Shown: piece by piece, positions 47,057 through 52,735 of the stretch | Layout: each line of letters begins with the position of its first letter | Numbering within the stretch: position 1 is the stretch's first letter | DNA from: Pseudomonadota bacterium | GTDB lineage: Bacteria > Pseudomonadota > Gammaproteobacteria > Steroidobacterales > Steroidobacteraceae | Direction: 5' to 3' | DNA length: 64,000 nucleotides | Assembly (NCBI GenBank): GCA_025355245.1 | Contig: JANXZZ010000058.1 | Location: forward strand, 1 to 64,000 | The notes under the pieces: generated by a model | Database searches by the model: none | Told to the model about the DNA's origin: nothing | Seen by the model: the letters and a program-made list of their open reading frames with translations, nothing else | Made by a program: the position numbers and the translations under genes

Positions 47057-47259
47057 AGGGGCCCACTCGCGGGCCGCGCAGACGGGAGTGGGCAGATCTC
47101 GCGCACCAAGGCACTATCGCAGTGCCCCGCCGCGATCGGCGATGACGCGGCGGCCGTTATTGAACCTCGGTGCGCCGTGACGGGCACCGCGACCGGAGGA
47201 CCGCAGATGCGCCTGCGTATTGCGTCGATGCCGGCGGGAATTCGCCGCGAGGTGCGCCG

Positions 47260-48021
47260 GTGCGTCGCGTAGTCGTGTGCGCGGTTCTCGTGCTGGCGGG
47301 CTGCGGCTCCGACCGCGACTATGCTGCGGCGGAGCGCGCCAATACCGTGGTTGCCTTCGATGACTACCTGCGGCTGCACCCCGACAGTGCGCACGCCTCG
47401 GAGGCACGCGCGCACCTGGCGACGCTGGTGGAGGCACGCGAATGGGAGCGTGCGCACAGCGCCGACACGGCCGATGCCTACCAGCAGTACCTGCGCGGCT
47501 ACCCCTCCGGTGCTCACGCGCACGATGCACTGATCGCGATCTCCGACTTCAACATGGCCGCGGTCCCGAACACCGAGGCATCGGGCGCCGCGTCCGCACC
47601 GTCGCTCGCGCCGGGCGGTCCGCCGGCGACGCCCGCCGTGAAAGGACCGATCGCGCGCACACCGGTTCCGGTGGCGCGCGTGAATTCGTCGCCGGCAGCC
47701 AAGCCCGCGCCCGTCGCGGCTGCCGCGCCGTCGCCAGCACGCGCGCCGACCGTGGCAGCGCCAGGAACCCGCATCCAGCTCGGCGCGTTCGCGTCGGAAT
47801 CCGCCGCGACGGCGGCATGGCAGCGGCTCGCGCATCGCTACGCCGAGCTCGCAGGACGCACGCCGCTGGTTGCGAGCGCCACGCTCGCGGACGGGCGACA
47901 CGTGCACCGTCTCCAGGTCGGCGGCTTCAGCGCCCAGTCGGCCGCGGCGATGTGCGCCGCGCTGGCTGCGAGTCACGACGCCTGTCTTATTGTGCCGGCC
48001 GCGGCCGCCACGACGAACTGA
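47260..48021 (+). CDS. SPOR-domain lipoprotein
   Basis: This is a 253-aa predicted outer-membrane lipoprotein. I start at GTG 47260 with GAGGTG 6 bases upstream; the ORF-track start at 47170 is unlikely. The signal ends in VLVLAGC. Residues about 25-100 contain two similar helical units, AFDDYLRLHPDSAHASEARAHLATL and AYQQYLRGYPSGAHAHDALIAI, like tetratricopeptide repeats. A Pro/Ala-rich linker follows. The C-terminal 75 residues form a SPOR domain (TRIQLGAFASESAATAAWQRLAHRY, HVHRLQVGGFSAQSAAAMCAALA), which binds denuded peptidoglycan at division sites. One GAACTGAC motif of the downstream regulatory region overlaps its stop codon. Confidence 0.85.
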   Translation: MRRVVVCAVLVLAGCGSDRDYAAAERANTVVAFDDYLRLHPDSAHASEARAHLATLVEAREWERAHSADTADAYQQYLRGYPSGAHAHDALIAISDFNMAAVPNTEASGAASAPSLAPGGPPATPAVKGPIARTPVPVARVNSSPAAKPAPVAAAAPSPARAPTVAAPGTRIQLGAFASESAATAAWQRLAHRYAELAGRTPLVASATLADGRHVHRLQVGGFSAQSAAAMCAALAASHDACLIVPAAAATTN

Positions 48022-48071
48022 CCCCGCGCGGCGGGGCAAAGTCGTCAGTTCCTGACGCGCCACGTCAGTTC
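48015..48071. promoter_or_regulatory. Enhancer-like sites upstream of a sigma-54 promoter
   Basis: GTCAGTTC occurs three times in 57 bases: as its complement GAACTGAC at 48015-48022, and forward at 48044-48051 and 48064-48071. The middle copy is part of the perfect inverted repeat CGTCAG-TTC-CTGACG (48043-48057). The two forward copies are exactly 20 bp apart, two helical turns. They lie about 60-120 bp before the -24 element, the normal place for a sigma-54 activator to bind. The repeats are seen directly; the activator is unknown. Confidence 0.65.
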
Positions 48072-48132
48072 TCCGGCGCCAGCGGCGGACCGGAGTGTTC
48101 GTAACCAGTTGTTTTATATATATTTACAAGGT

Positions 48133-48147
48133 TGGCACGGGCCTTGC
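48133..48147 (+). promoter_or_regulatory. Sigma-54 (-24/-12) promoter
   Basis: TGGCACGGGCCTTGC has the full TGGCAC (-24) and TTGC (-12) elements with the exact 5-base spacing of RpoN promoters. An AT-rich stretch (TTTTATATATATTTACAA) lies just upstream. Transcription should start near 48159. The first terminator lies only about 75 bases on, so the main product is a short RNA, not the efflux operon mRNA. Confidence 0.85.
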
Positions 48148-48158
48148 TTTATCTTCAG

Positions 48159-48233
48159 TGCAAGTCTCATCTCCCCCTGTGGTTTGAATCTTGGCGCCGT
48201 CGAGCTTCCCCCAGCTCCCGGCGCCTTTTTTTT
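48159..48233 (+). ncRNA. Predicted sigma-54-dependent small RNA, about 75 nt, with two UCCCCC motifs
   Basis: No reading frame with a ribosome site is present between the sigma-54 promoter and the terminator, so I predict a small RNA. Its 5' part is single-stranded and contains UCCCCC (48172-48177). The 3' part folds into the terminator hairpin, whose loop is exactly UCCCCC again (48207-48212). C-rich motifs exposed in this way, as in Xanthomonas sX13, pair with G-rich ribosome sites of target mRNAs. Start position (plus or minus a few bases) and function are inferred; the motifs are seen directly. Confidence 0.65.
48193..48233 (+). terminator. Strong intrinsic terminator with UCCCCC loop
   Basis: GGCGCCG (48193-48199) pairs with CGGCGCC (48219-48225), and inside it GAGCT pairs with AGCTC around the 6-base loop TCCCCC. 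Eight Ts follow directly (48226-48233). This is the clearest Rho-independent terminator in the window. Confidence 0.93.
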
Positions 48234-48362
48234 CGCCGGCGCGCAAGTCCGGGGCGCCAACGGTTCGTCGCTCGAGACCTGCCATTCACCGCGTGTCATC
48301 AGAATCTGCACCGTGAACGGGTAGACTCGCGCAACTCTTTGTTGCACCTAGAAGTAGCCACC

Positions 48363-49595
48363 GTGAACGATGACGCCACGTCGCGCCCGGATTCGGGCGA
48401 CGCGCCACACTCCACTCACTCCTTCGGCGGCGATTCCTACCCGGCAGCCGCGACCGCTGGGATCGAGACGCCGTTCTGGCGGCGCACGCAGGTCATCGGC
48501 ATCGCCGTGGTCGGGGTCCTCGCCGTGGTCATCGCCCTCGTCATCGTCATGCACGTGCGCGCGGCCAACCTCGCCAATGCGGTGGACCCGAACGACGCGA
48601 TTCCGCTCGTGACCGCGCGCGCGCCCGGTCGCTCGACGATCGCGTCGCTGGTCACGTTCACCGGCGGCATCGTTGCCCGCTACGACCAGCCGATCGGCGT
48701 CGAGGGCGACGGCGGTCGGGTCTCGGAAGTGCTGGTCGAGAGCGGTGACCGCGTCAGCCGCGGCCAGGTGCTGGCGCGCCTCGACACGGCAGTCGTATCG
48801 GCGCAGGTGGCGAACCTGCGCGCGTCCGTCGAACAGATGCGCGCGGAGGCCGTGCTCGCCGAGGCCGACTACCGGCGCGCCGCGGCGGTTGCCGACTCGG
48901 TCGGCGCGCTGTCGAAGGAGGAAGTGGACAAGCGCCACTCCGTGGTCGCGACCTCCGCGGCCCGCGTGAAGTCGGCTGATGCGCAGCTCGCCGAAGCCGA
49001 GGCGCGCCAGGGGCGCACCTCGATCCGCGCACCGGCCGACGGCATCGTGCTGACGCGTACGGCGGAAGTCGGCCAGACCGCGATGCCGGGCGGCGCGGCG
49101 CTGTTCCGGCTCGCGCGCGGCGGTGAAGTCGAGATGCGCGCGCAGGTGGCGGAGCGCGACCTGCCGCGGCTCAAGCTCGGGCAGGACGCCGACGTGTACC
49201 TGACCGGCATCGCGACGCCGTTCCAGGGCAAGGTCCGGCTGGTGAGCGCCGTCATCGACCCGCAGACCCGCCTGGGCGAAATGCGCATCGCGCTCGAGCA
49301 GCGACCGGACCTGAGGCCCGGTGCCTTCGCGCGCGGCGAAGTGAAGGTGGGATCGGAGGTGCTGCCGATCGTTCCACAGACCGCCGTGCTGTCGGACGGC
49401 CCGACCAATTTCGTCTACGTCGTCGGCACCGACGGCCACGTGACTCGCCGCGCCGTCAAGGTCAGCGGCACGCAGCCGCAGGGAATCGTGATCGGCGAGG
49501 GCATCGACGGCACGGAACGGATCGTCTCCTCGGCCGGCGCCTTCCTGCATGACGGAGAGCTCGTCCGCCTCGCGGAGGCGAAGGGTTCGCCGTGA
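48363..49595 (+). CDS. RND efflux periplasmic adaptor (membrane fusion protein)
   Basis: This adaptor of about 410 aa links an RND pump to an outer-membrane channel. The likely start is GTG 48363; the ORF-track start at 48132 lies in the small-RNA region. A polar N-terminal tail of about 43 residues is followed by an inner-membrane anchor (VIGIAVVGVLAVVIALVIVM, 44-63). Then come the barrel-sandwich strand RYDQPIGVEGDGGRVSEVLVESGDRVSRGQVLARLD, a helical hairpin (AQVANLRASVEQMRAEAVLAEADYRRA) and the second lipoyl half TSIRAPADGIVLTRTAEVGQTAM. LVSAVIDPQTRLGEMRIAL is also family-typical. It overlaps the pump gene (GTGA). No outer-membrane channel gene follows. Confidence 0.92.
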   Translation: MNDDATSRPDSGDAPHSTHSFGGDSYPAAATAGIETPFWRRTQVIGIAVVGVLAVVIALVIVMHVRAANLANAVDPNDAIPLVTARAPGRSTIASLVTFTGGIVARYDQPIGVEGDGGRVSEVLVESGDRVSRGQVLARLDTAVVSAQVANLRASVEQMRAEAVLAEADYRRAAAVADSVGALSKEEVDKRHSVVATSAARVKSADAQLAEAEARQGRTSIRAPADGIVLTRTAEVGQTAMPGGAALFRLARGGEVEMRAQVAERDLPRLKLGQDADVYLTGIATPFQGKVRLVSAVIDPQTRLGEMRIALEQRPDLRPGAFARGEVKVGSEVLPIVPQTAVLSDGPTNFVYVVGTDGHVTRRAVKVSGTQPQGIVIGEGIDGTERIVSSAGAFLHDGELVRLAEAKGSP

Positions 49596-52500
49596 GAAAT
49601 ATCTCCTCGTGGGCGATCAAACACCCGGTGACGCCGCTGGTGCTGTTCGCGGTGCTGACTTTCGTCGGAATCGTCGCCTTCAAGCTCTTGCCGGTGAACC
49701 TGAACCCCGACGTGACCTACCCGGCCGTGACGGTGTTCGTGTCGCAGCCAGGCGCCGCCCCGGCCGAGCTCGAGACGCAGGTCATGCAAAAAGTCGAGGG
49801 CGCGGTCGCCTCGGTCGCCGGGGTCCGCAGCGTCACCTCGTTCGCCTCCGAGGGCACCGCATTCACCTCGATCGAATTCCAGATCGGCACGCCGATCGAC
49901 CGGGCGATGAACGACGTGCGCGATGCGATCTCGCGGGTCCGCTCGCAGCTGCCCGAAGGCATCCAGGAACCGATCGTCCAGCACCAGGACATCGACGGTG
50001 GTGCGTTCGTCTACTACGCCGCCAGCAGCAACGCGATGAGCTCGCAGGAGCTGAGCTGGTTCGTCGACAACGCCGTCACCAAGCGGCTGTTGCCGCTGCC
50101 GGGCATCGCCCAGGTCAACCGCTCCGGCGGCGACAGTCGCGAGATCCGCATCGAGCTCGATCCAGCGCGCATGCAGGCGCTTGGCATCACCGCCGTCGAC
50201 GTGAACCAGCAGCTGCGCACGCTCAACGTCGATTCGCCGGGCGGTCGCGCCCAGCTCGCCGGCGGCGAGCAGTCGATCCGGGTGCTCGGCGGCGCGCGCA
50301 CTGCCGAACAGCTCGGCAACACGCGCATCCAGCTGAGCGGTGGACGCTTTGCGCGGCTCGATGACATCGCCACCGTCAAGGACGGAGTCGAGGAGGTCCG
50401 CTCGATCGGCAGGCTCAATGGCCGGCCGGCAACCACCTTCGGCGTGTCGCGCTCGCGCGGCTCCTCGGACGTCGCCGCGCTCGCCAACGTCGAGGCCGAG
50501 CTCAAGAAGATCATCGTCGAGAACCCGAGCGTGACGGTCAAGCAGGTGTTCTCGACGGTCGGCGCGACCAAGCTGCAGTACAACTCGGCGATCGACGCGC
50601 TGCTCGAGGGCTCGGTGCTCGCGGTGCTCGTGGTGTGGGTATTCCTGCGCGACTGGCGCGCGACGGCGATCTCGGCGCTCGCGATCCCGCTGTCCGCGAT
50701 CCCGACGTTTGCGTTCATGGCGTGGATGGACTTCACGCTCAACAGCATCAGCTTGCTGGCACTGTCGCTGGTTGCCGGCGTGCTCGTCGACGATGCGATC
50801 GTCGAGATCGAGAACATCGTGCGCCACATGCGCATGGGCAAGACTCCGTACCAGGCGGCGCTCGAAGCGGCCGATGAGATCGGGCTCGCCGTGGTCGCGA
50901 CCTCCGGGACCATCATCGCGGTGTTCCTGCCAGTCAGTTTCATGGGCGGCTTCACCGGCCAGTACTTCAAGCAGTTCGGGTTGACCGTGGCCGCGGCCGT
51001 GTTCCTGTCGCTCTTGGTCGCGCGACTGATCACGCCGGTGATCGCCGCGTTCACGCTCAAGCCCGCGGGCTTCAAGGCGCACCTCGAGGGGCCGCTGATG
51101 ACCCGCTACCTCGCCCTGTTGCGGGCGAGCGTGACCCATCGCTGGCGGACGATCGGCGTCGGCGTCCTTTTCTTCGCGCTGTCCATTGTCGGCCTCGCGC
51201 TCATCCCGAAGGACTTCATTCCCGCCGGCGACTTCGGCACCAGCCAGATCTCGATCGAGCTGCCGCCCGGCGTGCGCATCGAGGACACCGCAGGGGTCTC
51301 CGACAACGTGACTGCGCTGGTCCGCAAGTCGCCCGATGTCGCCGACGTCGTCGAGTCCATCGGCAACGGCGACGACGGCTCGGTTCGCGAGGCGCAGATC
51401 TTCGTGTCGCTGAAGCCGCGCGAGCAGCGCAAGCTCAGCCAGAAGCAGTGGGAAGACGCGATGGCGCCGCAGCTGCGGGCGATTCCCGACGCTCGCGTGT
51501 CGATCGCTTCGCAGAGCGGCGGCGGCGGCGACGCGCCGATCTCGCTCTATTTCACGGGCGATGACCTCGAGCAGATCGAGTCGGCCGCGCGGGCCGCGGT
51601 CGTGCAGATGCGGGACGTCAAGGGCATCCGTGATCCGCGCATCGCGGGCGACCTGCCGCGTCCCGAGCTCCTGATCAAGCCGCGCTTCGATCTCGCCGCG
51701 CAGCTCGGCGTGACGGTGCAGGCCATCAGCCAGACGATCCGGATCGCGACGATCGGCGACATTCCACAGAACGCGGCCAAGTTCTCGCTCGCCGACCGGC
51801 AGGTGCCGATCCGTGTCAGCCTGCTCGAGTCCTCGCGCCAGGACATGTCGACGCTCGAGAACCTGCCGGTGCCGACCGCCGCGGGCGGCGCGGTGCCGCT
51901 CAAGGCCGTTGCCGACATCAGCTTCGGCGAGGGACCGGCGACGATACGCCGCTACAACCAGACGCGCCGCGTCAAGGTGCTGGCCGACCTGCAGCCGGCT
52001 GCGGCGCTCGGTGACGTGAGCGAGCTCGTCAAGGCCCTGCCCGCGATCAAGCACCTGCCGCAGGGCGTGCACCTCGTCGAGCGCGGCAGCGTCGAGTTCA
52101 TGACGGAGATGATGCGCAACTTCACGCTTGCGATCCTCGCGGGCGTGCTGATGGTGTTCGCGGTGCTGGTGCTGCTGTTCGCGCGCATCTTCCAGCCGCT
52201 GACGATCCTGTCGGCGCTGCCGCTGTCGCTCGGCGGCGCGATCCTCGCGCTGATGATCTGCGGCATGCCGTTCTCGTTCCCGGTGGTGATCGGCATCCTG
52301 ATGCTGATGGGCATCGTCGCCAAGAACTCGATCCTGCTGGTCGATTTCGCGATCGAGGAGATGCGCGCGGGCAAGGACCGGATGACCGCGCTCATGGAGG
52401 CCGGGCACAAGCGTGCGCAGCCCATCGTGATGACCAGCATCGCGATGATCGCCGGCATGTTGCCGATCGCGATCGGCCTCGGCAATTCGAACTCCTTCCG

Positions 52501-52735
52501 CACGCCCATGGCGGTATCGGTGATCGGCGGCATCATCACCTCGACCTTCCTGACCCTCGTGATCGTTCCCGCGGTGTTCAGCGTCGTCGACGACATCGAG
52601 AAGTGGCTGGCACCCAAGTTCAAGGGTCTCGTTACGCACGAGTACCACGTGCTCGCGCACCACCTGCCCCGCCCGCCGGGCGAGGCGCCGGCCGGCGGAC
52701 TCGCCGGCGGTCGCGCCCAGGACAGCAGTCCCTGA
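49592..52735 (+). CDS. RND-family efflux pump (AcrB/HAE-type inner-membrane transporter)
   Basis: This 1047-aa proton-driven pump starts at GTG 49592 overlapping the adaptor. It has the normal 12-helix duplicated layout. The first helix starts MRNISSWAIKHPVTPLVLFAVL, and the first big periplasmic part includes VNLNPDVTYPAVTVFVSQPGAAPAELE. Helix 4 carries LLALSLVAGVLVDDAIVEIENIVRHM with the Asp pair needed for proton transfer, and SFMGGFTGQYFKQFGLTVAAAV follows. Late motifs are VVIGILMLMGIVAKNSILLVDFAIE (with the essential Lys) and AGMLPIAIGLGNSNSFRTPMAVSVIGG. Drug versus metabolite export cannot be told from sequence. A GC-rich hairpin follows the gene. Confidence 0.94.
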   Translation: MRNISSWAIKHPVTPLVLFAVLTFVGIVAFKLLPVNLNPDVTYPAVTVFVSQPGAAPAELETQVMQKVEGAVASVAGVRSVTSFASEGTAFTSIEFQIGTPIDRAMNDVRDAISRVRSQLPEGIQEPIVQHQDIDGGAFVYYAASSNAMSSQELSWFVDNAVTKRLLPLPGIAQVNRSGGDSREIRIELDPARMQALGITAVDVNQQLRTLNVDSPGGRAQLAGGEQSIRVLGGARTAEQLGNTRIQLSGGRFARLDDIATVKDGVEEVRSIGRLNGRPATTFGVSRSRGSSDVAALANVEAELKKIIVENPSVTVKQVFSTVGATKLQYNSAIDALLEGSVLAVLVVWVFLRDWRATAISALAIPLSAIPTFAFMAWMDFTLNSISLLALSLVAGVLVDDAIVEIENIVRHMRMGKTPYQAALEAADEIGLAVVATSGTIIAVFLPVSFMGGFTGQYFKQFGLTVAAAVFLSLLVARLITPVIAAFTLKPAGFKAHLEGPLMTRYLALLRASVTHRWRTIGVGVLFFALSIVGLALIPKDFIPAGDFGTSQISIELPPGVRIEDTAGVSDNVTALVRKSPDVADVVESIGNGDDGSVREAQIFVSLKPREQRKLSQKQWEDAMAPQLRAIPDARVSIASQSGGGGDAPISLYFTGDDLEQIESAARAAVVQMRDVKGIRDPRIAGDLPRPELLIKPRFDLAAQLGVTVQAISQTIRIATIGDIPQNAAKFSLADRQVPIRVSLLESSRQDMSTLENLPVPTAAGGAVPLKAVADISFGEGPATIRRYNQTRRVKVLADLQPAAALGDVSELVKALPAIKHLPQGVHLVERGSVEFMTEMMRNFTLAILAGVLMVFAVLVLLFARIFQPLTILSALPLSLGGAILALMICGMPFSFPVVIGILMLMGIVAKNSILLVDFAIEEMRAGKDRMTALMEAGHKRAQPIVMTSIAMIAGMLPIAIGLGNSNSFRTPMAVSVIGGIITSTFLTLVIVPAVFSVVDDIEKWLAPKFKGLVTHEYHVLAHHLPRPPGEAPAGGLAGGRAQDSSP

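Follow-up and report, generated by a model that had tools for sequence, protein, structure and literature searches.

The locus

The window analyzed here is a 64,000-nucleotide (nt) stretch of contig JANXZZ010000058.1, from a gammaproteobacterial metagenome-assembled genome (MAG) of the family Steroidobacteraceae (GCA_025355245.1). Between a gene for a SPOR-domain protein and one for a HlyD-type membrane fusion protein it carries, at 48044-48233, a compact unit consisting of an upstream element, a sigma-54 (RpoN) promoter and an intrinsic terminator, which is probably the gene of a trans-acting small RNA (sRNA) of about 70-75 nt belonging to the PilS-PilR regulon. The gene, its RNA structure and its sigma-54 box are conserved, and the element is shared with type IV pilin promoters, as the computations described below establish.

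An earlier note on this DNA had pointed to a perfect RpoN promoter, a strong terminator ending a short RNA, and two copies of UCCCCC, the second being exactly the terminator loop; all of these are present (Table 1), and the terminator reads GGCGCCG-UC-GAGCU-UCCCCC-AGCUC-C-CGGCGCC-U8. The three GTCAGTTC motifs that it listed are also there. Two copies, at 48044 and 48064, lie 20 bp apart, and GTCAGTTCCTGAC at 48044-48056 is an inverted repeat whose 5-bp arms match perfectly; the third, in reversed orientation at 48015, overlaps the last bases of the upstream open reading frame (ORF) and falls outside the conserved activator unit (48044-48067), so that only two of the three belong to it.

Conservation and structure of the RNA

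The RNA predicted to start at about 48159 folds better than all of 200 shuffled versions (z -3.4), with two hairpin domains, and its C-rich tracts are conserved and exposed in loops or unpaired stretches, as in C-rich-loop repressors. A DNA search of 98 relatives found the promoter-to-terminator stretch in 7 more genus genomes (76-92% identity), with the flanking DNA mostly not conserved. A covariance model designated R2 gives the 8 genus loci 90-105 bits, all 8 having been in its training set. A second model, R1, covers the RNA only, with no promoter, and was trained on 12 RNAs of other genera, most of which had been found via the promoter pattern; its sole match in the 4 Mb host genome is 48162-48231 (33.5 bits, E 1.1e-5), and it matches in 48 of 296 genomes of the order. 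Thirty of the order-level loci were cut out and read, including 5 from the R1 training set and three near contig ends that were re-read. In a 52-sequence alignment, 13 of 18 base pairs change on both sides and 96% of cells pair, though these counts are biased towards the model to which the alignment was fitted; none of 500 shuffles reach the observed level, and sliding the pairing partners abolishes the signal.

A pattern scan of species genomes revealed the same layout in gammaproteobacterial MAGs of soil type, one of which is titled Steroidobacteraceae: sigma-54 box, GCGAACAACUUCCCCGUGUUCGC, and a terminator whose loop is UUCCCCC. Several of these units come after an ORF end that, by eye, resembles the end of the window SPOR gene; together with the shared neighbors in G010, these likenesses suggest a Steroidobacteraceae-like gammaproteobacterial host. 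No paralogous copy of the sRNA was found in the host genome, which has 12 perfect sigma-54 boxes including the one in the window; this RNA lies downstream of none of the 7 others that were read.

Promoter and upstream element

A sigma-54 box lies upstream of the RNA at all 30 order-level loci; promoter and hairpin are thus conserved together in relatives, on which the earlier note had made its proposal depend. The motif TGAC-N7-GTCA is found within 520 nt at 26 of these loci and is in register at 24, while in random 525-nt stretches of the sister genome G010 the box occurs in 0.5%, the element in 0.8% and both in register in 0.01%. The full GTCA-N5-TGAC-N7-GTCA is present at every one of the 8 genus loci. 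Outside the order, 9 weak R1 matches have neither box nor element, and class-level matches with no promoter were taken as chance terminators; the exception, L193, has both. The combined pattern TGAC-N7-GTCA-N45-75-TGGCA-N6-TTGC is found in 31 of 98 genomes, with 1 control match, and most of its occurrences precede either this RNA or a small ORF.

Conservation, covariation and co-occurrence with the promoter together give good support to the prediction of a sigma-54-dependent sRNA gene whose terminator loop is C-rich and whose product looks like sX13. The covariance search that the earlier note had suggested for this region supports its reading of a sigma-54-controlled small RNA.

Relationship to pilA and PilR

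In the same genomes, the promoters of the type IV pilin gene pilA combine a sigma-54 box with TGAC-N7-GTCA-N5-TGAC, and the sRNA element is the exact reverse complement of this arrangement. The two kinds of promoter share the same box and the same three half-sites at the same spacings; they differ in that the sRNA element is in mirror order and nearer the box (55-65 bp, versus 106-121 bp at pilA), and in that the papers found name protein genes as targets of PilR, while the product here would be an RNA. A blind search at the pilA spacing (95-125 bp before the box) gave matches in 34 of 60 genomes and 0 control matches; 27 of the 31 matches that were read are pilin genes. The pilA promoter of G010 adjoins genes for a response regulator of the NtrC type and a kinase carrying the PilS transmembrane domain; NCBIfam gives no PilR-specific name to that regulator, which is called PilR here from its PilS partner and its position. 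Within the genus, an element-bearing pilA is found in 6 of the 8 genomes that carry the RNA and in 0 of the 7 that do not (p 0.006, a post hoc value uncorrected for relatedness). The PilR sites of Pseudomonas aeruginosa have been described with GTCT elements (PMC6058289).

The sRNA locus has both the sigma-54 box and the pilA-type upstream element looked for in a member of the PilR regulon. Since that element matches the one at pilA half-site by half-site, the matches at pilA spacing are mostly pilins, and the G010 pilA gene has PilS and NtrC-type neighbors, PilR is very likely the activator of the sRNA, shared with pilA. These findings do not support the dedicated activator of the earlier note or its suggestion of nitrogen, carbon or envelope control, and favor PilR instead.

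In the proposed scheme, PilR would bind GTCA-N5-TGAC-N7-GTCA, integration host factor (IHF) would bend the DNA between this element and the sigma-54 box, and sigma-54 polymerase would transcribe the sRNA alongside the mRNA for the major pilin, PilA. Transcription would stop at the sRNA's own terminator, leaving two C-rich tracts exposed, one in the loose 5' segment and the other in the terminator loop. Their most likely partners would be the G-rich ribosome-binding regions of further mRNAs, whose translation such pairing would reduce, so coupling other functions to pilin production.

Several points weigh against this picture. The sRNA gene is a prediction, known here from genome sequence alone. 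The host genome, an 87% complete MAG in which pilR was not searched for, yielded no pilin gene. Four loci of a sister genus (L229, L230, L231 and L233) have the RNA and its sigma-54 box with no TGAC-N7-GTCA; the activator or its site may have changed there. The pilA leaders examined contain no G-run that would make pilA itself a target, and when the conserved 5' segment was paired against 2.4 Mb of G010 the best pairings equaled those of shuffled-flank controls, pairing energies being high everywhere in this GC-rich genome.

The sRNA might instead answer, through sigma-54, to another NtrC-family protein -- NtrC, one of the PrsR type, or a dedicated one -- whose site resembles that of pilA by chance. 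Such activators are many and have related sites, the four sister-genus loci are without the element, and PilR binding at the element is itself predicted; this alternative is nevertheless unlikely, given three half-sites, identically spaced and in mirror order, that the sRNA and pilA have in common, a pilA-spacing pattern that matches nearly nothing but pilins, and the co-occurrence of RNA and pilA in the genus.

The small-protein genes

The same sigma-54 promoter and element also precede a family of small proteins of 79-97 amino acids (aa), with the pattern EVIGLLL ... GCFRKGRPI.DP ... GYEMEQV and no Pfam match. Its members are at L132, L133, L134, L147, L148, L131, L157 and L158, and at L132-L134, L147 and L148 a C-rich-loop terminator comes after the small ORF.

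One possibility raised by such genes is that the transcript in the window is mainly a short leader or an mRNA remnant, cis-acting or inert, whose terminator once closed a small-protein gene; in G068, G081, G093, G031 and G050 a promoter of the same type does drive an ORF of 83-97 aa that ends in a C-rich-loop terminator. We regard this as improbable: the RNA is under strong constraint in both sequence and pairing, a strong terminator ends it ahead of the next genes, and in G056 a small-ORF gene lies apart from the short RNA.

Comparison with sX13 and other RNAs

Bacterial sRNAs made by sigma-54 polymerase under enhancer-binding proteins (LuxO, GlrR, CbrB and similar) include Qrr, GlmY and CrcZ, which resemble the present sRNA in this mode of control and are unrelated to it in RNA sequence and structure. 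RepG of Helicobacter pylori acts with its terminator loop; it has a different promoter and comes from a different phylum, and no sequence relation is claimed. The sigma-54 dependence of Qrr has been discussed (PMC10162802).

At Rfam gathering cut-offs there is no match in the window. The nearest Rfam RNA is sX13 (RF02232) of the Xanthomonadaceae, with a weak match over the full model of 24.8 bits against a cut-off of 50. In Xanthomonas, the C-rich loops of sX13 act on G-rich motifs near start codons, repressing mRNAs with G-rich leaders, and sX13 lowers several type IV pilus mRNAs; it has three stem-loops in about 115 nt and lies beside polA (PMC3771888). Both are small RNAs whose loops, that of the terminator among them, are C-rich; they differ in length, number of stems, neighborhood and promoter. 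Membership in the sX13 family was rejected on the score, on two hairpin domains versus three stems, and on SPOR and RND neighbors versus polA.

That the RNA is a divergent sX13 that acquired a sigma-54 promoter, as the full-length weak match, the similar loops and the shared contact with pilus genes might suggest, is very improbable, with half the gathering score, none of 98 relatives reaching E 0.001 with the sX13 model, promoter DNA falling on the first stem of sX13 in the weak alignment, sX13 itself having three stems and lying beside polA, and neither sigma-54 box nor element at the sX13 loci of three Stenotrophomonas genomes.

Possible targets and significance

Returning to the PilR-controlled sRNA, we lean slightly towards repression by pairing of its C-rich tracts with G-rich ribosome sites, by analogy with sX13. 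In the 2.4 Mb of G010 that were read, GGGGG precedes the start in 5% of genes. The gene petA, for the Rieske protein (L384-L397), has CCACAGGGG, complementary to the conserved CCCCUGUGG of the sRNA, just before its start codon in 5 of the 8 genus genomes that carry the RNA, with two more nearly so. The same sequence is found there in 3 of 6 genus genomes that do not have the RNA, and so may simply be a ribosome site.

Sigma-54-controlled sRNAs and C-rich-loop sRNAs are both known kinds; what appears to be new is their combination under the pilin element, in a family that extends across the order. The earlier note knew of no described RNA with this arrangement, which agrees with Rfam and with the open-access papers searched. 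No PilR-controlled sRNA was found in that literature either, which is weak evidence of absence. Tentatively, the order-wide family could be a built-in further output of PilS-PilR, the sensor of pilin level, resetting translation of mRNAs with G-rich leaders when pilA is switched and so coupling pilus status to metabolism and envelope functions. If so, this would be the first known sRNA branch of PilSR, a widespread two-component system for pilin control. A conserved sRNA under the pilin element offers a testable post-transcriptional route from pilus status to many genes, and would add an RNA family absent from Rfam. Alongside sX13, it points to more than one occasion on which C-rich-loop sRNAs became linked to type IV pili.

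Coordinates and neighboring genes

The features are collected in Table 1. The sRNA start was placed from promoter geometry, 12 nt past the C of the -12 element. The IHF-like site sits between activator element and sigma-54 box; judged by eye, its fit to the consensus YAANNNNTTGATW is imperfect at the window locus and perfect in several relatives. The SPOR and RND neighbors occur in the same order in G010. A coding function for the RNA stretch was rejected, the ORF that runs over it (48132-49595) being the efflux gene extended upstream.

Table 1. Positions of the predicted sRNA gene, its control sites and its neighbors in the window.
Feature	Coordinates	Strand	Basis
SPOR-domain protein, upstream neighbor (longest ORF, start uncertain)	47170..48021	+	Pfam SPOR, 41.7 bits
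Upstream activator element GTCA-N5-TGAC-N7-GTCA, likely PilR site (predicted)	48044..48067	+	Conservation and mirror likeness to pilA element
IHF-like site TAACCAGTTGTTT	48102..48114	+	Read by eye
Sigma-54 -24/-12 box TGGCACGGGCCTTGC, perfect	48133..48147	+	Sequence; conserved at sRNA loci
Predicted sRNA, about 70-75 nt, through U-run	48159..48233	+	R1 match 48162-48231; R2 match 48159-48234
First C-rich tract UCCCCC, inside conserved CUCCCCCUGUGGU, weakly folded 5' segment	48172..48177	+	
Intrinsic terminator, loop exactly UCCCCC at 48207-48212	48193..48233	+	Folding; covariation in relatives
HlyD-type membrane fusion protein, downstream neighbor	48363..49595	+	Followed by RND permease at 49592-52735

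Variant and look-alike units

Longer forms of the transcript (about 130-300 nt), which keep the two 3' hairpins, are seen at L149, L151-L154 and L136-L138, the last three upstream of a peptidase-like gene. The RNAs of the sister-genus loci L229, L230, L231 and L233 have a longer C run in their first loop.

Units of similar appearance are found further afield. At L069, L084 and L107 (Desulfobulbales/Desulfobacterales), a sigma-54 box TGGCACAGCCATTGC is followed by an RNA in which a UUUCCCCC tract occurs twice, the second time as the terminator loop; the arrangement is conserved in the three records, the upstream sequence, TTTGTACCG, is different, and these are possibly an independent sigma-54-dependent C-rich RNA. 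A sigma-54 box and a C-rich-loop terminator, in units of similar length, also occur in Coriobacteriia MAGs (L057, L085 and L098) and in a member of the Bacteriovoracaceae (L117). TGAC-N7-GTCA was not seen at these four loci; the three Coriobacteriia units are mutually alike.
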